Position numbers and translations under genes: made by a program. This document shows, one piece after another, positions 10,030 through 63,672 of a DNA stretch of 64,000 nt. Location of the stretch: NCBI GenBank assembly GCA_023053685.1, contig JALIGW010000003.1, positions 47,209,996 through 47,273,995 of the forward strand, read 5' to 3'. Origin of the DNA: Diadophis punctatus similis. Its lineage: Eukaryota; Chordata; Lepidosauria; Squamata; Dipsadidae. The notes below the pieces were generated by a model that made no database searches, was not told the DNA's origin, and worked only from the letters and a program-made list of their open reading frames with translations. Position 1 is the stretch's first letter; each line of letters opens with the position of its first letter.

Positions 10030-10677
10030 ATGATCAGCTCCGTGTGTGTCTCATCTTACCGTGGGCGCAAATCAGGGAACAAGCCACCCTCCAAAACATG
10101 CCTGAAGGAAGAGATGGGCAAAGCAGAAGAGTCCGACAAGATCACGATCAACGTGGGGGGCACCCGGCATGAGACCTACAAGAGCACTTTGCGCACCCTG
10201 CCTGGGACCCGGCTGGCCTGGCTGGCAGATCCCGATGCCCAGACCAATTTTGACTTTGATGGGAAAAGCAATGAGTTTTTCTTTGACCGCCACCCAGGCA
10301 TTTTCTCTTACGTCTTGAACTACTACCGCACGGGCAAACTACACTGCCCGGCTGACATCTGTGGGCCCCTCTTTGAAGAGGAGCTGACCTACTGGGGCAT
10401 TGATGAGACTGATGTGGAGCCTTGCTGCTGGATGACTTACCGGCAGCACCGGGATGCGGAGGAAGCCCTGGATATCTTCGAGAGCCCTGAGCCTGGCAGC
10501 GGGCTGGCTGGGGAAGAGACTGAAGATGAAGGGGCCCGGGAGATGACCCTTCAACACCTGGGCATGGAGGATAGGCCTCCTGGAGCCTCAGGAGGAGGAG
10601 GATGTGGCTGTTGCCGGAACTGGCAGCCGAAGATGTGGGCACTTTTTGAGGATCCCTATTCATCAAAGGCGGCCCGG
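10030..10677 (+). CDS. KCNC4: KCNC4 (Kv3.4) exon 1: inactivation ball and T1 domain
   Basis: This exon encodes residues 1-216 of a Shaw-class voltage-gated K+ channel subunit. The first 29 residues ([16 protein letters not shown]...) are the N-type inactivation ball that distinguishes Kv3.4 from other Kv3 paralogs. They keep Cys6 (redox-sensitive in known Kv3.4) and Ser8, Ser9, Ser15 and Ser21, the known PKC sites. The T1 tetramerisation domain runs from about residue 38 ([14 protein letters not shown]) to about 140 and has the Zn-binding H-x5-C-x20-CC motif of Shaw channels at H105, C111, C132 and C133. Compared with mammalian Kv3.4, the Gly/Ser-rich insert before EFFFDRHPG is absent and a short Kv3.1-like linker is present. 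The exon ends after a [19 protein letters not shown] motif at a strong donor (CGG|gtgagt, phase 0). The ATG was chosen because the ball sequence must begin there. Confidence 0.97.
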
Positions 10678-11113
10678 GTGAGTCAGTAAGAGAGGGCAGG
10701 GAGACCAGGTTTCCTAGGGTGGGTGGGTAGGTGGGTAGGTATGTGCCCCACTTCTATTGCCTAGGATACAATTGGATGCCCTTCTGATATGTAGGACTAC
10801 AAGTCCCATCATTCCCAGGCAACATTACCAGTGACCAGCTTGGGCGACAGGCACTCTATTGGAGCGTATCTGATTGGGGAAGATTGAATTAATCACTTGG
10901 GTTTGGGGGCATGCAAAACAAAAAAGCCCTCCCCCCCTCCCTCAGTATGTTTCTTTGCAGATTTACTACTGTAGTTGCTTTACATTTCAAGCTCTCAAAG
11001 TTTTCAGTGTAGTTCTTCACCTGAGAGTGACCTCTGCTTCCTCTGCTGCTGCTTCTCTTATTTTCCCCTTTATTTGCCTTTTCTGATACAGGTAACAGGT
11101 CTTGCTCTTTTTC

Positions 11114-12204: not shown

Positions 12205-12870
12205 GAACATAGAATAACAGGATTGGAAGGGACCTTGGAGGTCTTTTAGTCCAACCCCTGCTCAAGCAGGAGACCCTATATCAGTGATGGCGAACCTTTT
12301 TTGGCTCGAGTGCCAAAAGGGTGTGTGCGCACGCGATAGTGTGCACGTGCGTGCCCACACCCATAATGCAATGCCCTCCGCCCGTGCATGCACACAATCC
12401 CCGCACTGCCCCTCACACATGCGCACAGGCCTCACTGAAGCCTCCAGACTTCTGGTAGGCCCGTTGGGCCGTTTTTCGCTGTTCCCAGGGTTTAGGAGGC
12501 TTTCCTGAAGCCTGGGGAGAGCGAAAACTGCCGAAAAGAAGAGCGAAAATCAGCTGACTAGCGCACACATGTGCACTGGAGCTGACATAGGGCAACGCCT
12601 CGCGTGCCCTCAGATATGGCTCCGCGTGCCACCTGTGGCACCCGTGCCATAGGTTCGCCATCACTGCCCTATATCGTTTTGGACAAATGATTGTCCAATC
12701 TCTTTTCGAAAGCTTCCAGTAATGAATTTCTTGTCACTGGTATATATACATTCTGCCATACGTATTCTGAGCTTTCCATCTTGTGTATAACACTTGGATG
12801 AAGAACATAGTAAGATTTAAAAGTGTAAACTCTGAATCTAGTTTTGCTTCTCATAAAGTTCACCTCAAAA
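12205..12870 (-). mobile_element. L3/CR1 LINE 3' fragment, split by a hAT MITE
   Basis: The fragment begins ATAGAATAACAGGATTGGAAG, the antisense of the L3/CR1 tail, runs to 12281 and resumes after the MITE (12667 onward: TATCGTTTTGGACAAATGAT). It predates the MITE. Confidence 0.75.
12282..12666 (+). mobile_element. hAT MITE, 8-bp target duplication CCCTATAT
   Basis: The termini are CAGTGATGGCGAACCTTTTT and AGGTTCGCCATCACTG. Exact 8-bp duplications CCCTATAT lie at 12274-12281 and 12667-12674. The body shares GGCACGCG/TGCCACCTGTGGCAC sequence with 25517, 35401 and 51769. It is non-autonomous with no transposase. Confidence 0.92.
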
Positions 12871-13989
12871 TGTATATTCCATAGGGAGGGTTAACTGGGA
12901 AGTGCCAATAAAGTGTATCCAAAATATTTTCTTTCACCTAAATTCAGACAATTTAGGCATTCATATCCACAAAAGATTCATTTTAAATAGAATTTATAAC
13001 TATTTAAGTCTCAAAAGTCTTAGATTTCCACAAGTACTGTTGATCAGAAGATATAAACAGATTTGTTGAAAACCATCTTCTGTATTTTTCTGTATCACCT
13101 TTGGTTGAATCTTGCCTACTTAAGAAAAAAAACCTGTGATTGTTCTTCATGGCCAGGTGATAAAAAGTTGATTGTAGGTGAGAAATAAACAATTTTGCTA
13201 ATAAGGATCACCGGTATCTAGCAAATGGAGAGTGAGGACAGCCTCATTCCAGCTTGTTATGAATCCATGAAAACATGGCTATTTCTGTTCAGTTTTCCCT
13301 CAGTAGCTAACTACCTTTTTAAACCTTACTTTTTCTTTTTTAAAGGAAAGAATCAGTGTTATTAATTAGGATGATATTTCAACCTGTTGGAGAAGATAAA
13401 AATAAGTGACCCAATGTCAAGGTCAGATAAAGAATTTGGAAAGAAACATGGATTTCCAGGGCACAGAGCCATTACATAAGAACATCCAACATTGCCTAAA
13501 TTAAAGGAGACAAAATATATATTAGCATCTGACCAGCCTGTCCTGGTTGATTCCACTGCACTCTAAAAGAATTGAGAACCGTTGGTAATTGAGGTTCAAT
13601 TCTTCTTCATTTCCGGGCTTCTTTCCAACTATGATAAGGATTAAAAAAAAAATCTAGAAAAAAAATCAGCAAAGTTATCTCAACATTTATCAAGTACCTA
13701 TTCTAATATCAGTACTGAATTCAAAAAGAATGTTTAAACAGTGAATAAAACATGAATGGGATATCTTGCAAAGTGCTTTTATAATTAGCTAGTGCAGAAA
13801 AGCCCTTTTTCCTAAGAAGTTCTATTGTAAAGGAAAATCATGTGAACACCTTGTTGTGACAGCTTCATCCCCAAAATATATCTATTTGTTCATAAACTCA
13901 CTACAGTCGTCTGCCTTCCATCCATCCATCCCTCATTACACAACAGCCATTTTGTTGACTCCCACCTCTCTTCATCTTCCTGTGGCCCC

Positions 13990-14168
13990 CAAACGTTTGG
14001 GCACCAGGGACCAGTTCCATGGAGAGAAGTTTTCCCATGGACCGGAGGGGGTGTGGTTTCACGTGCGGCCTGCATCCTGCAGATGGGGCTTCACTTGTTT
14101 GTGCGGCCCGGTTTCTGGCATGCCGCGGCCCTGTGCCAGTCCACAGACCTGGGGTTGGGGACCCCTGC
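13990..14168. mobile_element. Charlie-like hAT fragment
   Basis: It contains GGGCACCAGGGACCAGTTCC, GCGGCCCGGTTTCTGGCATG and, at the right end, GGTTGGGGACCCCTG, the terminal signature also seen at 43619 and 44612. No clean target duplication was found; the left end is degraded. A second small hAT-like inverted repeat (14176-14274) adjoins it. Confidence 0.65.
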
Positions 14169-19880: not shown

Positions 19881-20823
19881 ATCATTGCCTTTGCTTCGCT
19901 TTTTTTTATTCTGGTATCCATCACAACTTTTTGTCTGGAGACACATGAAGCCTTCATCATAGACACCAATGTGACTGAGACCCTAATAGTGGGCAATACG
20001 ACTGAGATTGTTGTGATGAAAAAGATGGAGACAGAGCCTGTTCTCACCTGTATTGAAGGAGTTTGTGTGCTGTGGTTCACTCTGGAGTTTCTGGTGCGCA
20101 TTGTTTGCTGCCCAGATAAATTGATCTTCATTAAGAACCTTCTTAACATCATTGACTTTGTAGCTATTCTACCCTTCTACTTAGAGGTGGGACTCAGTGG
20201 CCTATCATCCAAAGCTGCGCGAGATGTGCTGGGCTTCCTGAGGGTAGTTCGTTTTGTCAGAATCCTCCGGATCTTCAAGCTGACCCGCCATTTTGTGGGA
20301 CTTCGGGTGTTGGGCCATACACTCCGGGCCAGCACCAATGAATTCCTCCTCCTCATAATCTTCCTGGCTCTAGGAGTTTTGATTTTTGCTACCATGATCT
20401 ATTATGCTGAAAGGATTGGTGCCAAGCCATCTGATCCTAGCGGTAGTGACCATACCCACTTTAAGAACATTCCCATTGGATTTTGGTGGGCAGTGGTAAC
20501 CATGACAACTTTAGGTTATGGAGACATGTATCCCAAAACCTGGTCAGGTATGTTGGTGGGAGCTCTTTGTGCCCTGGCTGGTGTTCTTACCATTGCTATG
20601 CCTGTTCCAGTCATTGTCAACAACTTTGGAATGTATTACTCATTGGCCATGGCGAAGCAAAAGCTCCCCAAGAAGAAAAAGAAGCACATACCCCGTCCAG
20701 CACCACTTGACTCTCCAACGTTCTGCAAATCGGAGGACAACTCGCCTCACAACAGTATTCAGAGTTACAACAGTCCTCTAGCGGCAACAACAGCAGCTGG
20801 GGTGATGGAGAGGAAAAGATCAG
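19881..20823 (+). CDS. KCNC4: KCNC4 (Kv3.4) exon 2: S1-S6 membrane core
   Basis: The exon encodes residues 217-530 plus the first base of codon 531. In order: S1 (about 217-237, starting [13 protein letters not shown]), an extracellular S1-S2 loop with two N-glycosylation sequons (NVT at 246, NTT at 255), S2 (about 270-291), S3 (about 304-322), S4 voltage sensor ([19 protein letters not shown]; charges at 337, 340, 343, 346, 349 and 352), S5 (about 370-391), the pore helix and filter TMTTLGYGD (GYGD at 428-431), and S6 (about 440-464) with the PVP gating hinge at 457-459. The basic [15 protein letters not shown] stretch follows. The start is set by the acceptor ctttttcag and the end by TCAG|gtgaga (phase 1). 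No frameshift or missing catalytic/selectivity residue is seen, so the channel core looks functional. Confidence 0.98.
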
Positions 20824-21155
20824 GTGAGATGTAAGATTTCAGACTAAACAAAACATATAAATAGTAGTGGTAGGAAGATTCTGGACATGAATTTGTGGAT
20901 GTATAAAGCAGTGGCTCTAGAAGAAATATATGTTATGTAAGATTATGGTGTATATGGTGTAGAGTTATCATCTGGATAAAGGTATGTTGTTTGGGGTGAG
21001 TGCAGAGAAATCTTCTTTTAATTATTAATCTTGCTGTATTTATAATGGTGTCCACAGGGAGAGAATTAGAAAAGTGGGTTCACTAGGCCAGACTGAGTTT
21101 TGTCCATTTTAGAAGAAGATGAATAAATACAAGTCTGTCTAACAAAGATAATATC

Positions 21156-23400: not shown

Positions 23401-23724
23401 CAGAGGTGGGTTCCTGCCGGTGCGGTTAATAGCTGTTGTTTGGCGCAGAGCCGAAGACGCTGCTGCCGTTCGCGGTGTGGGGGCTTTCCCCGGGTGCTGC
23501 CGCCACCCGCATGGACGCCACCAATTGCGTTATTTTGCCCTCTGCGCATGCGCAAAGCGTTCTGCATGCGCAGAGGGCAAAAGAACGCAATTGGCGGCGT
23601 CCATGCAGGCAGGGAAAGCGCCTGGGGAAAGCTCCCGCGCCACGAACGGCAGCAGCGTCTTCGGCTCTGCGCCGAACAACAGCTATTAACCGCACCGGCA
23701 AAAACAGGCAGGAACCCACCTCTG
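23401..23724. mobile_element. Palindromic hAT MITE inside an ATCT microsatellite, TSD ATCTATCT
   Basis: The two arms, each about 155 bp, are near-perfect reverse complements: they start CAGAGGTGGGTTCCTGCCGG and end CAGGAACCCACCTCTG, with TCTGCGCATGCGCA near the centre. Duplications ATCTATCT flank it (23393-23400, 23725-23732). The frames found inside on both strands are mirror images caused by the palindrome. Confidence 0.88.
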
Positions 23725-27597: not shown

Positions 27598-28055
27598 CCA
27601 TATTTTTCGGAGTATAAGATGCACCTTAGTTTTTGGGGAGAAAAATAAGGGAAAAAAATTACCTACCAGGTATTCATCTGGCTAGCGTCCTTAGTCTGGT
27701 CAGCTTCAGCACATTATTTTATCCCCTGGTTAGGGCTGAAAAAAACCTTCTTCAGAGGGAGTAGCAATGAAAAAAGCCTGCAAAGACTTAGGGCTGGAAA
27801 AAAACCTTCTTCGGAGTAGCAATGAAAAAATCCTGCAAGCCGGGAAGATCGTTAGCACCTCGTTAGGGCTGAAAAAACCTTTTTCAGAGGGAGTAGCCAT
27901 GAAAACAAGCCGGGAAGAGCTGGGAAGATCGTTAGCACCTAGTTAGGGCTGGAAAAAAAGCTTCGTAAAAGCTACATTCGGAGTATAAGACGCACCTAAA
28001 TTTCCAGCCTCTTTTAGGAAGGAAAAAGGTGCGTCTTATACACTGAAAAATACAG
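27598..28055 (+). mobile_element. TA-target MITE (CCGTATTTTTC family)
   Basis: Ends CCATATTTTTCGGAGTATAA and TATACACTGAAAAATACAG are flanked by TA. The longer body carries internal repeats of the GAAGATCGTTAGCACCTCGT module. Confidence 0.88.
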
Positions 28056-28719: not shown

Positions 28720-28871
28720 CAGGGGTGGGTTCCTCCCGGTTTGAACCGGATCGCCTGAACCGGTAGCGACCCGCTGGTGATGTCACGGATCTGATTCGGT
28801 CAGTGCCAGTCCGTGGGTGCTGCCACGTTGCGATGTGAACAGGTGGCGAAGGTAAGTGGAACCCACCCCTG
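28720..28871 (+). mobile_element. Short hAT MITE (ACCGG family), TSD GAGTAGAT
   Basis: The 152-bp element has ends CAGGGGTGGGTTCCTCCCGG and GTGGAACCCACCCCTG, and exact duplications GAGTAGAT at 28712-28719 and 28872-28879. It is an internally deleted relative of 16404-16848. Confidence 0.9.
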
Positions 28872-33979: not shown

Positions 33980-34673
33980 CAGGGGTGAAATTCAGCAGGT
34001 TCTGATAGGTTCTGGAGAACCGGTAGCGGAAATTTTGAGTAGTTCGGAGAACCGGCAAATACCACCTCTGGCTGGCCCCAGAGTGGGGTGGGAATGGAGA
34101 TTTTGCAGTATCCTTCCCCTGGAGTGGGGAGGGAATGGGGATTTTGCAGTATCCTTCCCCTGGAGTGGGTTGGGAATGGAGATTTTGCAGTATCCTTCCC
34201 CTGGAGTGGGGAGGGAATGGAGATTTTGCAGTATCCTTCCCCTGGAGTGGGGAGGGAATGGAGATTTTGCAGTATCCTTCCCCTGGAGTGGGGAGGGAAT
34301 GGGGATTTTGCAGTATCCTTCCCCTGGAGTGGGGAGGGAATGGAGATTTTGCAGTATCCTTCCCCTGGAGTGGGGAGGGAATGGAGATTTTGCAGTATCC
34401 TTCCCCTGGAGTGGGGAGGGAATGGAGATTTTGCAGTATCCTTCCCCTGGAGTGGGGAGGGAATGGGGATTTTGCAGTATCCTTCCCCTGGAGTGGGGAG
34501 GGAATGGAGATTTTGCAGTATCCTACCCCTGGAGTGGGTTGGGAATGGAGATTTTGCAGTATCCTTCCCCTGGAGTGGGGAGGGAATGGGGATTTTGCAG
34601 TATCCTTCACCTGCCACGCCCACCAAGCCACGCCCACAGAACCGGTAGGGAAAAATTTTGAATTTCACCCCTG
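33980..34673 (+). mobile_element. hAT MITE containing a minisatellite, TSD TTGCAACT
   Basis: Ends CAGGGGTGAAATTCAGCAGG and AATTTTGAATTTCACCCCTG lie between exact TTGCAACT copies (33972-33979, 34674-34681). Its terminal parts match the larger element at 58287-59572. The centre is the 41-bp tandem array. Confidence 0.92.
34084..34608 (+). repeat. 41-bp minisatellite, about 13 copies
   Basis: The unit starts GGAGTGGGGAGGGAATGGAG and ends CAGTATCCTTCCCCT. Copies differ at a few sites (GGAGATTTT versus GGGGATTTT; GGGGA versus GGTTG). Because 41 is not divisible by 3, all frames stay open and cycle every 123 bp, producing long repetitive false ORFs on both strands. Confidence 0.97.
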
Positions 34674-40827: not shown

Positions 40828-43125
40828 ATGTATGGCCTGCAGGAAGGGAGGGAGACCAGCGGGGGAGGGGAGGGGGTCTCTGGTGTAGGCGAGAGCCGGA
40901 CCATCTCGGTCATAACGGGAAGAGGCAGCTATGGCGGGAGCAGAGGGGTGGGCCGCTCTCGGGGAATAAGACCTCGCTGTTTACAAGCGATCCCTTGTTC
41001 TGGCCCCTCCGATCCGGTTCCATCTTGCTCAACCCGGATACCTGGCAACCAGGGCTTTCAGGGCCCTGGGCTCAGGATGCTGCTGCTTAACGCCAGGTCA
41101 ATCGTCAACAAAGCCCCCTTGATACGTGATTTAATCACAGAGGAGGGGGCAGACCTGGTGTGTGTTACCGAGACCTGGCTGGGGCAGGAGGGGGGAGTAG
41201 CTCTCTCCGAGATATGCCCAGCCGGTTTCTCGGTGCAGCACCATTCTCGACCCCAGGGAAGGGGGGGAGGAGTGGCAATAATAACGCATGGAAATCTGCA
41301 TCCTCGTAGGATCCCTGCCCCGGAGATTGTTGGGTGTGAGACGCTCCTTTTGAAGTTGGACTTAGGGGTACAGGTGGGCCTTTTCTTAACGTACCTGCCT
41401 CCCAGCTGCGTAAGCAAGGCCCTGCCTGAGCTGCCCGAGGCAGTAGCCGGCTTGGCAGTTGAGTTCCCCAGGCTTATGGTGCTGGGGGACTTCAACTTGC
41501 CATCTGCCGGCGAAACCTTTGGGGCGGCCCAGGAGTTCATGGATTCCATGACAACCATGGACCTGTCCCAAGTAATCCAGGGTCCGACTCATGAGGGCGG
41601 TCACATGCTCGACCTAGTGTTTCTTTCGGGGCAGTGGAGAGATGATCTGAAGATAAGGGACTTAGTCATCACCCCACTGTCATGGTCAGATCATTTCCTA
41701 CTGAGGTTGGATTTCGCAGCCCCATTCCTCCCCCGCAGGGAGGCGGGACCGACTAGGTGGTTCCGCCCCAGGCGCCTAATGGAACCGGAAGGATTCCAGA
41801 GGGAACTTGGGGAAATACCTGAAACCCTGGTACACAATTCGGCTGACTCCCTGGTGGCTGCCTGGAACACCGCAGCATCAGGGGCTCTAGGCCGAATTGC
41901 ACCTAAGCGACCTCTCTATGGCAGTGGATTCCGGAAAGCTCCCTGGTTTACCGAGGAGCTCCGGGAGATGAAACGCCAGAAGAGACGTCTGGAGCGCCGC
42001 TGGAGGGCCAGAAAAACCGAGTCTGATCGAACACTATTAAGAATTTACATCAGATCTTATTTAGTGGCGATAAGGGCGGCAAAACGATCCTATTTTTCCG
42101 CTCTTATTGCGTCCGCAGATTCTCGCCCAGCCGCCTTGTTTAGGGTGACTCGCTCCCTCCTTGCTAAAGGGGGGAGCGAGGAAGACTTACAAGGCAGAGC
42201 TGAGGAATTCGCTGAGTTTCTGTCGGATAAAGTCGCTCAGATTCGGTCAAATCTGGACTCCGGCTGGGCAGAGTCCATTGAGTTGACAGGGGCTAGTCTT
42301 AGTCCATCATTATGGGAAGAGTTTGGGCCTGTTTCTCCCGAGGATGTGGACAGGGCTGTGGGAGCGATGGGTACCTCCACCTGTTTATTGGACCCGTGCC
42401 CCTCCTGGCTGGTTTCGGCTAGCAGGGAGGTAGCACGCGGCTGGATCCAGGCGGTGGTCACCGCTTCTTTGAGAGAGGGATCCGTACCGCAGTCGTTAAA
42501 AGCTGCGGTGGTGCGACCCCTCCTGAAGAAGCCTTCCCTGGATCCAGCCGACTTGAAGAACTATCGTCCGGTCTCCAACTTACCTTTTTTAGGGAAAGTT
42601 GTGGAGAAGGTGGTGGTTACTCAACTTCTGCAGCTCCTGGATGAAACAGATCATCTAGATCCTTATCAGTCGGGTTTCAGGCGCGGCTACAGTACAGAAA
42701 CTGCCTTGGTCGCTCTGATGGATGATCTCTGGCGGGCCCGGGATGGGGGGAACTCCTCCATCCTGGTGCTACTTGACCTCTCAGCGGCTTTCGATACCAT
42801 CGACCATGGTATCCTTCTGCATCGTCTCAGCGAGTTGGGAGTGGGAGGCACCGTTTTGCGGTGGTTCTCCTCTTATCTCGCTGATAGGATGCAGTCGGTG
42901 CTGGCAGGGGGGCAGAGATCGTCCCCTAGGCCCCTATCATGTGGGGTGCCTCAGGGGTCGGTTCTCTCGCCCATCCTGTTCAACATCTACATGAAACCGC
43001 TGGGTGAGATCATTCGCAGACATGGGGTGTGTTTCCATCAGTACGCTGATGACACCCAGCTGTACATCACCACCCCGTCTGACTTCAGTGAGGATCTGGA
43101 TGGGGAGGAACAGACTCAGACTTAA
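40828..43125 (+). pseudogene. CR1 ORF2: endonuclease and reverse transcriptase (disrupted)
   Basis: A 765-codon frame encodes an APE-type endonuclease (from about residue 84, MLLLNARSIVNKAPLIRDL; LMVLGDFNLPSAGE near 217; SWSDHFLLRLDF) and then the reverse transcriptase (NYRPVSNLPFLGKVVEKV; LDLSAAFDTIDH; GVPQGSVLSPILFN; and the catalytic HQYADDTQLYI with YADD at 739-742, nt 43042-43053). These enzymes nick target DNA and copy LINE RNA in place. The frame ends early because of a small deletion and +1 shift near 43.11 kb; the rest of the protein continues in another frame (next entry). The catalytic core is intact, suggesting a fairly young copy. Confidence 0.93.
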
Positions 43126-43618
43126 TCCCGACAAGACTGAGTGGCTGTGGATATTGCCTCCTAAGGACTATGACAACTGTCCCTCCTTGGTCCTTGAGGG
43201 AGCGAAATTGACTCCCTCGGACCAGGTCCGCAACTTGGGGGTCCTTCTAGATCCACAGCTAAAATTGGACCATCATCTTTCTGCTGTGGCTAGAGGGGCC
43301 TTTGCACAGGTTCGCCTGGTGCACCAGTTGCGGCCATATTTGGAGAAGGAGGCTCTACTCACGGTCACTCATGCCCTTGTCACCTCTCGTTTGGACTACT
43401 GCAATGCGCTCTACATGGGGCTACCCTTGAAGAGTATCCGGAAACTTCAGTTGGTGCAAAATGCGGCTGCGCGTGCTGTGGTGGGTGTGCCAAGGTACAC
43501 CCACGTGACATCGATACTCCGCCAGCTGCATTGGTTGCCCATCGGTCTCCGGGTCCAATTCAAGGTGTTGATCACCATCTTTAAAGCCCTTCATGGCTTG
43601 GGACCAGGTTATCTACGG
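43110..43618 (+). pseudogene. CR1 ORF2 C-terminal part 1 (shifted frame)
   Basis: The frame resumes as RLRLNPDKTEWLWI, then RNLGVLLDPQLKLDHHLSAV, RLDYCNALYMGLPLKS and FKALHGLGPGYLR, the RT thumb and C-terminal region of CR1 ORF2. It is cut at 43618 by the hAT insertion and resumes at 44621. Confidence 0.9.
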
Positions 43619-44612
43619 CAGTGGTCCCCAACCTTTTTATTGCCGTGGACCGGTCAACGTTTGATAATTTTTCCGCGGCCCACTGGGGGGGGGGGGTTAC
43701 GGCGTCGCGTTGATTATTAAATCAAAACAATCTCAAATATAAACAATTTTAATTTACAGTGTAAAGCACACAATCACCAACTGGTTTGGGTCTCATTGCT
43801 GAGAAGTCACAGATGATTACATGCCAGTCGCCAGAAAACTCTAATTATGCCTTTACAGAGAACATATTCGTAATTGCTGCTTTACATGAACAGGTTGCCA
43901 TCCCAGATGAGAGACCATTCATGTAAAAATGTACTGAATTAATTAACCTCTAATTCTTTCTACTCATTTTTCAGCCCTAAGGTTTTGGGGGAATTATTTG
44001 TAGGTGAAAAACTTTCCAAGTAAAGATGTGGTATTGGGCGGGATAAGCAGAAGCCCTTCCTCGGTGAGGATGCAACGCTTCTTTTTCCAGAGCTGCAGCA
44101 AGCCGTCGCTGCGTTTCTCCAGCACGCCCTCCTTCACCGGCTTGCCACCGCTCTCCAGCATCCTCCCGCCGCCGCCGCCGCCAAAAACTTCCGAAAGGAG
44201 TGAAAAGGCGCGCGCTCGAGGGAAGCGGCACACGGACGAGCGGGATTTCCCGGGACGCGCCGGAAAGGCTTCGCCTTCTGCCGAACGACGGCCAGGTTTA
44301 GCCGCGCGGCTTCTGGTCCCGCCGGTCTTTCCTCAGAACCGCTGGAGGAAGCGCCCTCCGTCCCCCTCTCGTTGTTTTTGAAAGCGGCTTTTTCATTTCA
44401 GCGACACCAGGTTTTCGGGGAGGGGCGAAGAAAAGGCAGGGCGGCGCCTGCCGAAGAGGCTGGCCGAGGAAAGCCCGGCCGTTTCATCCTCGCCTGCCCG
44501 TCTTTAGGGACGGAGGCGGAGGCTCAAGTCGCAGGACCAGTAGCAGGGCGGCCCGGTACCATTTGTTCTGCGGACCGGTACCGGGCCGCGGACCGGGGGT
44601 TGGGGACCACTG
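43619..44612 (+). mobile_element. hAT element carrying a captured PHLDA1 fragment, TSD ATCTACGG
   Basis: The ends CAGTGGTCCCCAACCTTTTT and GGGGGTTGGGGACCACTG are inverted and flanked by exact 8-bp copies of ATCTACGG (43611-43618, 44613-44620) within the CR1 ORF2. No transposase is present. The left 400 bp is AT-rich transposon sequence. About 44036-44530 is CpG-rich and encodes, in antisense, the beginning of a PHLDA1-type PH domain. The right about 80 bp (GCGGCCCGGTACC..., CCGGGCCGCGGACCG) is hAT sequence again. The element is non-autonomous. Confidence 0.93.
44036..44161 (-). pseudogene. PHLDA1: Captured PHLDA1 exon fragment (42 codons)
   Basis: On the minus strand, 42 uninterrupted codons encode [17 protein letters not shown], then [19 protein letters not shown] and LLLIPP, matching the first part of the pleckstrin-homology domain of PHLDA1 (TDAG51), where the known order is [43 protein letters not shown]2 and PHLDA3 differ in this segment. 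Similarity stops sharply after IPP at 44036, where AT-rich hAT sequence ([17 protein letters not shown]) begins. Upstream in the gene sense (44162 to about 44530), GC-rich DNA including a Gly-coding GCC repeat is probably the PHLDA1 5' region. The fragment lacks the rest of the domain and is not a functional gene. Confidence 0.85.
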
Positions 44613-44620
44613 ATCTACGG

Positions 44621-44857
44621 GACTGCATTCTGCCTCATACTTCCCTTCGACCGGTTAGGGCCCACAGAGTTGGCCTCCTCCAGGTCCCGTCGGCCAAGCA
44701 ATGCCAGCTGGCGGGCCCAAGGGGGAGAGCCTTCTCTGTGGCTGGCCCCGTGCTCTGGAACCAACTTCCGCCAGAGACCCGAACTATCCCCACTCTGCTG
44801 GCCTTCCGGAAAGCTGTTAAGACATGGCTTTTCCTGCAGGCGGGGGGTAGAGCTTAA
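44621..44857 (+). pseudogene. CR1 ORF2 C-terminal part 2
   Basis: After the hAT target duplication the LINE frame continues DCILPHTSLRPVRAHRVG, QVPSAKQCQLAGPRGRAFS and AFRKAVKTWLFLQAGGRA, with a stop at 44855-44857. It is continuous with 43110-43618 when the insert and one TSD copy are ignored. Confidence 0.9.
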
Positions 44858-45427
44858 TTCACTCGAGCTCACCCCCCAAGTATGTATGATATTGAATGGT
44901 TGGTGATGATTTCTATATTATGTTTTAATTTTTATATTTGCTTTTAATTAACTTTTTAGATTTTGGTTATTCTTGTATTTTCTTACTGTTGTACGCCGCC
45001 CTGAGTCCTTAGGGAGTTGGGCGGCATATAAGAATTCCAAAATAAATAAATAAATAAATAAACTGGTGGGTCATTCTGGTGGGTCCACAGAGGGAATGCC
45101 GATAGACAATATTTCCAGCAAATTATTTAGCCACAATATATATTACAGCAGACATATCAGCAGGACATGCTAAAATTGCTTGGCTGCTTTGTCTCCATCA
45201 TATTTATCAATCAGAAATACATTGATTCTAATCATGAAGCCTCCTTTGACATGAGTGACACTGACAGACCAGGCTCCTGGAAAATTAGTCTGATCCTTTT
45301 AAAACACAGAATGCAGGATTTATACAATATATACTGTTGGGTCAAGTTACTTTGTCCAAAGACACAATGGACATGTGAAATAGTTTGCATATGAATATTT
45401 AATTCTTAAATACCTTTGTTTTCTCAG

Positions 45428-47601: not shown

Positions 47602-48002
47602 CCGTATTTTTCAAAGTATAAGACGCACCGGAGTATAAAGCGCACCTTAGTTTTTGGGGAGGAAAATAGGGGGGGGAAATCTACTTACCAGGTATTCATC
47701 TGGCTAGCATCCTTAATCTGGTCAGCTTCAGCACATTATTTTATCCCCTGGTTAGGGCTGAAAAAAATCATCTTCAGAGGGAATAGCAATGAAAACAAGC
47801 CTGCAAAGACTTAGGGCTGGAAAAAAACCTTCTTTGGAGGGAGTAGAAATGAAAAAGCCTGCAAGCCGGGAAGATCGTTAGCACCTCATTAGGGCTGGGA
47901 AAAAAAAGCTTTGAAAAAGCTACATTCGGAGTATAAGACGCACCCAAATTTTCAGCCACTTTTAGTGGGGGAATGGTGCGTCTTATACTCCGAAAAATAC
48001 GG
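47602..48002 (+). mobile_element. TA-target MITE (CCGTATTTTTC family)
   Basis: Ends CCGTATTTTTCAAAGTATAA and TTATACTCCGAAAAATACGG; TA precedes the left end, and GTA follows the right end. The body matches 21777, 27598 and 63058. A short duplication of the left end (GGAGTATAAAGCGCACC) follows the terminus. Confidence 0.88.
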
Positions 48003-63057: not shown

Positions 63058-63672
63058 CCGTATTTTTCGGAGTATAAGACGCACCTTAGTTTTTGCGGAG
63101 GAAAATAGGGGAAAACAATCTGCCTACCAGGTATTCATCTGGCTAGCATCCTTAGTCTGGTCAGCTTCAGCACATTATTTTATCCCCTAGTTAGGACTTA
63201 AAAAAACCTTCTTCTGAGAGAGTAACAATGAAAGAGCATGCAAGCCAATAAGAGCTGGGAAGATCGTTAGCACCTAGTTAGGGCTAGAAAAAAACTTATT
63301 CAGAGCAAGTAGAGCAATGAAAAAAACCCTGCAAAGACTTAGGGCTGGAAAAACCTTCTTCTGAGAGAGTAACAATGAAAGAGCCTGCAAGCCAGTAAGA
63401 GCTGGGAAGATCGTTAGCACCTGGTTAGGGCTAGAAAAAAACTTATTCGGAACAAGTAGAGCAATGAAAAAAAATTCTGCAAAGACTTAGGGCTGGAAAA
63501 ACATTCTTTGGAGAGAGTAACAATGAAAAAGCCTGCAAGGTAAGAGCTGGGAAGATCTGTTAGCACCTAGTTAGGGCTGGAAAAAAAGCTACATTCGAAG
63601 TATAAGATGCACCCAAATTTTCAGCCACTTTTAGGGAGGAAAAAGGTGTGTCTTATACTCCAAAAAATACGG
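63058..63672 (+). mobile_element. TA-target MITE (CCGTATTTTTC family) with internal duplication
   Basis: Ends CCGTATTTTTCGGAGTATAA and TTATACTCCAAAAAATACGG; TA follows the right end but not the left, where it abuts the microsatellite. A block of about 155 bp (CTTCTGAGAGAGTAACAATG ... AACTTATTC.GA.CAAGTAGAG) is present twice, making this the longest copy in the window. Confidence 0.85.

Follow-up and report, generated by a model that had tools for sequence, protein, structure and literature searches.

Helitrons move by a rolling-circle mechanism and are not known to leave TSDs, and the Pack-TYPE elements of plants belong mostly to superfamilies other than hAT. Among animals, the closest described systems are the Pack-TIRs surveyed by Tan et al. 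(2021; PMC8277862), and that survey reports 370 of them in 100 animal genomes, of which 208 belong to hATs. No more than four families were multicopy, two of them with three and five copies, GC-rich filler was favoured in the multicopy cases, and a frog Pack-TIR carries the 5′ UTR of CAPSL on three chromosomes (PMC8277862). According to the same survey Pack-hATs are already known in vertebrates, mostly as single copies, and capture by hATs in vertebrates is better documented than in the original prediction for the locus described here, which held that gene capture by DNA transposons is seldom described in vertebrates. In bats, HelibatN3 Helitrons have spread the NUBPL promoter, and promoters of 15 genes were amplified to 4,690 copies, as Grabundzija et al. 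(2016; PMC4778049) report.

The snake element analysed in the present work resembles these systems in several respects. With the Pack-hATs of the animal survey it shares hAT ends and a TSD around a piece of host gene, an identifiable parent and microhomology (PMC8277862). As in the case of HelibatN3, a vertebrate transposon family has amplified a host promoter and first codons, although HelibatN3 captured a splice donor whereas the carrier here is a cut-and-paste hAT (PMC4778049). Pack-MULEs and Pack-TYPE elements likewise move by cutting and pasting and take up and reshuffle coding sequence, in plant hosts rather than in a snake (PMC8903248). Drosophila Ssk-FB4 is similar in that almost an entire host gene, together with the region upstream of it, was captured and moved to several sites; it is, however, a long-TIR, MULE-like element at three loci, polymorphic and backed by protein evidence, whereas the comparable form in the snake (form B) is frame-shifted (PMC8277862). 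Unlike the families of PMC8277862, the snake elements number 25, 10 and 3 copies of three forms (A, B and C), apparently represent two captures of one gene, include one capture that spans the whole coding region, and comprise three elements that bear a transposase gene.

Results

A hAT transposon with host PHLDA1 inside

The window, by which we mean the whole 64,000-nucleotide stretch of Diadophis punctatus similis DNA that was analysed, corresponds to G000:C217:47209996-47273995 of a 1.78-Gb assembly. Genome searches covered this assembly, and all counts are for this one assembly. Positions 43619-44612 of the window were confirmed as a hAT transposon with host PHLDA1 inside. The features of the locus are as follows.

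43619..44612, no strand: form-A Pack-hAT element, 994 bp, with exact TIRs and TSD; 25 form-A copies genome-wide, 24/25 with both limits
43611..43618, no strand: left TSD ATCTACGG, exact 8-bp duplication
44613..44620, no strand: right TSD ATCTACGG, exact 8-bp duplication
43619..43633, + strand: left TIR CAGTGGTCCCCAACC, 15/15 complementary to the right TIR
44598..44612, − strand: right TIR, 15/15 complementary to the left TIR
43619..43759, no strand: hAT left end, its initial 138 bp common to elements without PHLDA1
44527..44612, no strand: hAT right end
43636..43641, − strand: AATAAA on the PHLDA1-sense strand, inside the hAT left end
43760..44036, − strand: captured piece of the PHLDA1 locus that in the parent (C313:42688305-42688581) lies ~1 kb past the coding region, 274/277 identical (98.9%)
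44034..44526, − strand: captured PHLDA1 5′ piece, made up of the 366 bp before the ATG and the first 42 codons; parent C313:42686417-42686910, 479/497 columns identical (96.4%)
44034..44036, − strand: CAA, 3-bp microhomology at the joint of both PHLDA1 pieces (overlap of the parent alignments)
44036..44161, − strand: PHLDA1 codons 1-42, identical to five advanced snakes at 42/42 residues
43994..44161, − strand: chimeric ORF of 55 codons plus stop, 42 of them PHLDA1 codons and the remaining 13 supplied by the joint and the downstream piece
40828..45062 (limits approximate), + strand: host LINE, with the element inserted in its 3′ coding part

The original prediction had recognized inverted hAT ends with an exact 8-bp duplication, had read the 42 antisense codons at 44036-44161 as the first part of the PHLDA1 PH domain and had noted CpG-rich sequence upstream. 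The ends, duplications and residue identities listed above agree with it, and the CpG observed/expected ratio is 1.19 in 44162-44505 compared with 0.38 for the whole window. The host LINE retains a 765-codon frame at 40828-43125, with a frameshift thereafter; when the element and one TSD (1002 bp) are removed the LINE frame is rejoined, and the joint contains no stop.

In Pfam and PDB searches the 42 codons gave weak PH-domain matches only, so that a PH domain could be assigned but not PHLDA1, and the identity was settled by the vertebrate PHLDA1 proteins recovered in a protein search; no other gene fits better. All 42 residues are found in PHLDA1 of Erythrolamprus, Protobothrops, Crotalus, Pantherophis and Vipera. 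Thamnophis differs by one extra G and Ahaetulla by one substitution, and Candoia and Python have GC where the element has GG, plus one other change each. Codon 43 is N in the element and K in all five matching snakes, hence the PHLDA1 homology ends at codon 42/43. None of the proteins among the matches listed (best 120 of 207 and best 120 of 172) runs through the chimeric tail. One match, P0001 (a 60-aa fragment that also reads IPPN), was considered as a shared junction and rejected, its tail being different.

The parent PHLDA1 gene is whole and open at G000:C313:42686783-42687253, on another contig than the window element, and no meaningful hAT-end match was found in the 8.5 kb around it. We had considered the AT-rich part at 43760-44036 as hAT interior, a reading that was abandoned when the genome search matched it to the PHLDA1 locus; nearly everything between the hAT ends is therefore captured. 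The proposal that the element picked up PHLDA1 5′ sequence and spread it is upheld by the 25 copies and the intact parent, but has to be amended in that the capture consists of two PHLDA1 pieces, one 5′ and one downstream. The outer PHLDA1 junction, predicted at about 44530, is placed at 44526 by alignment to the parent. Approximately 1.39 kb of the parent is absent between the two form-A pieces. Since this stretch has no GT-AG intron borders in the parent and no poly-A was seen at the form-A joints, the filler is best regarded as genomic DNA joined by template switch or deletion and not as a retrocopy. Form A departs from the parent at 3/277 positions in the downstream piece and by 7 substitutions in the ~490 bp elsewhere.

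Measured against the Pack-TIR definition of PMC8277862, TIRs of one element lie on both sides of an insert within the range of 100-5000 bp. There is also a unique best parent of at least 90% identity, namely one PHLDA1 locus at 96.4% and 98.9%. The form-A insert of ~770 bp derives from a 2165-bp parental stretch and so lies outside the 80-120% size range, which is a filter of the PMC8277862 survey and not of the Pack-TIR idea.

Several other features of the window were observed. A much diverged relative with similar ends is present at 13980-14167. Four further hAT-like units (12282-12666, 23401-23724, 28720-28871 and 33980-34673) are each bounded by exact 8-bp duplications and by inverted ends no shorter than 12 bp, and the last of these contains a 41-bp minisatellite in 13 copies. 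A search for the hAT end in viral contigs gave no match. Exons of a Kv3 potassium channel gene, presumably KCNC4, lie at 10030-10689 and 19971-20834, Rfam reports a potassium-channel RNA editing signal at 20511-20624, and a tandem repeat of the TTAGGGCTGAAAAAAACC type occurs at three places (27730-27958, 47752-47864 and 63202-63587).

Number, insertion sites and age of the copies

A DNA search revealed 24 further form-A copies with 94-99% identity to the window copy, and 58 matches in all (best 40 of 2307 candidates). When snake PHLDA1 protein was used, with 73/73 candidates scored, 49 matches were obtained, comprising the parent, the 25 form-A copies (that of the window among them), 10 form-B loci as two rows each, and three weaker rows that are taken to be paralogues. 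PHLDA1-bearing elements thus occupy about 38 places in the genome (25 A + 10 B + 3 C). Matches from genome searches that scored the best 40 of 2307, 40 of 545, 74 of 2688 and 40 of 412 candidates are lower bounds.

To describe the insertion sites, we used the fetched sequences of the 24 other A copies, 10 B copies and 3 C copies. Both chimera limits are carried by 24/25 form-A copies. Exact 8-bp TSDs border 23/24 of the fetched A copies and the window copy (24/25), 10/10 B copies and 3/3 C copies; nine of the ten B duplications were seen in a first pass and the tenth, at L063, was found after the fetched stretch had been widened. L031 lacks both the left end and a TSD. Among 44 TSDs tabulated, seven of them from relatives without PHLDA1, 40 are distinct, and TA occupies positions 4-5 in 43/44. 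A TA in the middle of the TSD (nnnTAnnn) is the pattern of the Buster/Charlie branch of hATs, to which the element may belong. The 8-bp TSDs, the short TIRs (15/15 here) and the same ends in relatives are those of a hAT; hAT TIRs measure 10-25 bp (PMC8961557) and the Ac TSD pattern is given as nTnnnnAn. Comparison of the 100-bp flanks of 32/34 A and B copies (L031 and L041 omitted) gave six matches, which correspond to shared repeats at other registers or orientations, the flanks being otherwise unrelated.

The original prediction had proposed that a mobile chimeric family would appear as multiple copies with the same junctions and different duplications, and had named a unique locus with an insertion signature of its own as the contrary case. 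A search of the window's genome found the former: the same chimera recurs with nearly all duplications different, as in a multicopy Pack-TIR, and there is no poly-A or separate signature.

The 25 A copies differ from their consensus by a mean of 0.66% (range 0.1-1.8%; 0.26% outside CpG), and the window copy by 1 substitution in 988. Divergence from the respective consensus is 0.73-1.17% for nine B copies and 0.27-0.57% for the three C copies. With a substitution rate near 2e-9 per site and year, we infer a form-A age of the order of 1-3 million years. A recent capture had been predicted from the preserved reading frame; the low divergence sustains the recent date, whereas the open frame by itself is weak evidence of age. 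Where both ends are present, form A is 944-994 bp long.

On the basis of the parent gene, the identical junctions in many copies, the exact and differing TSDs and the low divergence, we conclude with a probability of roughly 0.93 that the window element is one copy of a young, multicopy and recently active Pack-hAT.

Form B carries the PHLDA1 coding region

Form B is ~1.37 kb long in most copies (1187 bp in L039 and 3759 bp in L063) and has 70 bp of the hAT right end and 100 bp of the left end around PHLDA1 sequence that begins ~180 bp before the ATG and continues for ~740 bp beyond the stop. The PHLDA1 coding region is present in 10 B elements and whole in nine of them. An 11-nt, frame-shifting deletion in the alanine run is common to 9/9 aligned B copies, and the two protein-search rows of each B locus (10/10) are in different frames. 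In addition, a 168-bp deletion after the stop is common to 8/9 aligned copies, while L039 has also lost the end of the coding region. This 168-bp gap was considered as an intron and rejected, as it has no GT-AG borders in the parent. With 168 bp missing of ~1.4 kb, the form-B insert lies within the 80-120% range. L063 (G000:C1:294767986-294772986) is a form-B element with an insertion of ~2.4 kb inside the PHLDA1 part.

Form C combines PHLDA1 sequence with a transposase gene

Form C is represented by three copies (L060, L061 and L062) of 2611-2612 bp, which have both hAT ends and a transposase gene, with PHLDA1 located between the right end and the transposase and pointing in the same direction. 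The PHLDA1 segment runs from 366 bp upstream to codon 19 and contains 423/423 bp of the parental stretch, in keeping with the 80-120% range. When the genome was searched with the inner junction of form C, three full matches ranked first (best 40 of 412 candidates). The transposase frame is open for 591 codons in L061 and, from the same start, for 174 in L060 and 344 in L062, and is thus interrupted in 2/3 C copies. The L061 transposase is 42% identical over 541 aa to human FAM200A, a hAT-derived gene. Pfam detected no hAT domain in the transposase, the best match being a zinc-finger model at residues 25-58 (E 0.11), and a PDB search with it gave no match. From its resemblance to FAM200A, it seems that an element with these ends encodes a hAT transposase.

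Three long transposase copies elsewhere start their frame ~30 residues earlier, 2/3 of them without stops (best 74 of 2688 candidates), and the form-C transposase lacks these ~30 N-terminal residues. No hAT end was found within the 811-821 bp fetched before the long copies. L095 and L099 (on G000:C2 and C112) are shorter-start transposase copies without PHLDA1. Both have the 8 bp CCATAACC next to their right ends, unlike the 8 bp found at the left ends of these loci, L094 and L077; L095 and L099 are perhaps copies of one older composite.

In L060 and L061 a frame of 63 codons begins at the PHLDA1 ATG and overlaps the start of the transposase in a different frame; in L062 the codon is CTG. The arrangement of form C allows a tentative and, in our judgement, doubtful reading, in which the PHLDA1 upstream region, leader and ATG plus 19 codons replaced part of the hAT 5′ region. 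The transposase would then lie under a host CpG-island promoter and could have powered the recent A/B/C burst. The position and direction of PHLDA1 in form C and the CpG-rich filler favour this reading, whereas the out-of-frame 63-codon ORF, the finding of only three C copies and the single open transposase argue against it. The loss of a GGGGCGGGG stretch in form C at first seemed to favour promoter replacement, an argument that was discarded since the plain elements L095 and L099, without PHLDA1, also lack GGGGCGGGG.

PHLDA1 was apparently captured twice

Forms A and C have in common the right junction, 26 bp missing in comparison with the plain relative L085, and five substitutions and two 3-bp deletions relative to the parent, and are therefore assigned to one capture. 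Over ~297 aligned bp, 2 substitutions and two 3-bp deletions are confined to A with respect to B (both deletions being also in C), and 5 substitutions are found in B only. None of the tested A/C derived changes occurs in B. An unlikely alternative is that A, B and C arose from one larger PHLDA1 chimera via later internal deletions, in keeping with the identity of gene, orientation and hAT ends across the three forms; the A/B split may then have come right after capture. What speaks against a single origin is that A and B share neither outer junction and that no column in the ~297 bp unites them against the parent. On the same two grounds form B is most simply a second capture, and the alignments suggest that PHLDA1 was apparently captured twice, B independently. 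Form C may be the founding capture, with a small gap in a plain hAT and a 423-bp filler, or else A and C may derive from a longer capture.

Another filler points to a second host locus. The 715-bp filler of L089 is found in L101 and L102 as well, each of the three elements having exact duplications, and once more at G000:C79:3552287-3552990 (L100), in a CpG-rich stretch with 89.5% identity and without recognisable hAT ends. Given this 89.5% identity, C79:3552287-3552990, near a possible first exon, looks parent-like for a putative second host capture. L093, a relative with the same ends, is filled by a long CCCCTGCYCAYCAT minisatellite.

Discussion

We propose that a hAT with CAGTGGTCCCCAACC ends and a FAM200-like transposase would have taken up host PHLDA1 DNA when a broken or stalled copy was repaired or replicated with a template switch into PHLDA1. 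The switch points may be marked by GAC, shared at the C inner junction, and by CAA at the A inner joint. The chimera would then have been cut and pasted genome-wide by transposase acting in trans on the shared intact ends. The microhomology and the genomic, unspliced filler suggest template switching, and it is the shared ends that point to probable mobilisation in trans by this transposase.

It is improbable that the captured peptide or promoter is under selection, in the sense that the 55-codon ORF, the PHLDA1 5′ sequence and the AATAAA together give a functional product. The ORF is open in 25/25 form-A copies, the ATG is kept in 24/25 and AATAAA lies within the last 60 nt in 24/25, but with a mean divergence of 0.66% the copies are too young for an open frame to mean much. 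Furthermore, 13/25 depart from the commonest peptide or start codon, only the first part of the PH domain is present, and form B has spread even though its coding region is frame-shifted in 9/9 aligned copies. Still less credence can be given to a separate filling of individual hAT copies by template switching. This is the main published route for single copies (PMC8277862), and the microhomology at the PHLDA1-PHLDA1 joint and the C inner junction fits it; however, one chimera is common to 25 copies, 24 of which have an exact TSD of their own, and identical breakpoints are not expected from separate events. Template-switch filling may describe the founding event. The chance that a LINE made a processed PHLDA1 retrocopy, with flanking or carrying by a hAT added later, is close to negligible: a nearly open LINE does lie in the window and form B lacks the 168-bp stretch downstream of the coding region, but the filler reaches 366 bp beyond the ATG on the upstream side and takes in DNA from ~1 kb past the coding region, and the marks of a processed copy (poly-A tail, introns removed, start at the transcript) are missing, the joints being free of poly-A and the absent stretches of ~1.39 kb (A) and 168 bp (B) lacking GT-AG borders in the parent.

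Having set these alternatives against a recently active Pack-hAT, we retain the latter. A literature search that covered top matches and few subscription papers returned no report of PHLDA1 capture and none in which a captured host promoter controls a hAT transposase. The apparently new points are the copy number for a vertebrate hAT, the capture of one gene more than once, the form that spans the whole gene, and the placement of a host 5′ region ahead of the transposase.

The presence in one genome of a young burst, an intact parent, three architectures and a transposase relative makes capture, rearrangement and spread readable and testable. Transcription of form C from the PHLDA1 promoter, if it occurs, would mean that a DNA transposon has taken over the promoter of a host gene to express its transposase. 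Moreover, the copies scatter CpG-island sequence and PHLDA1 pieces through the snake genome, where they could be promoters or sources of small RNAs.
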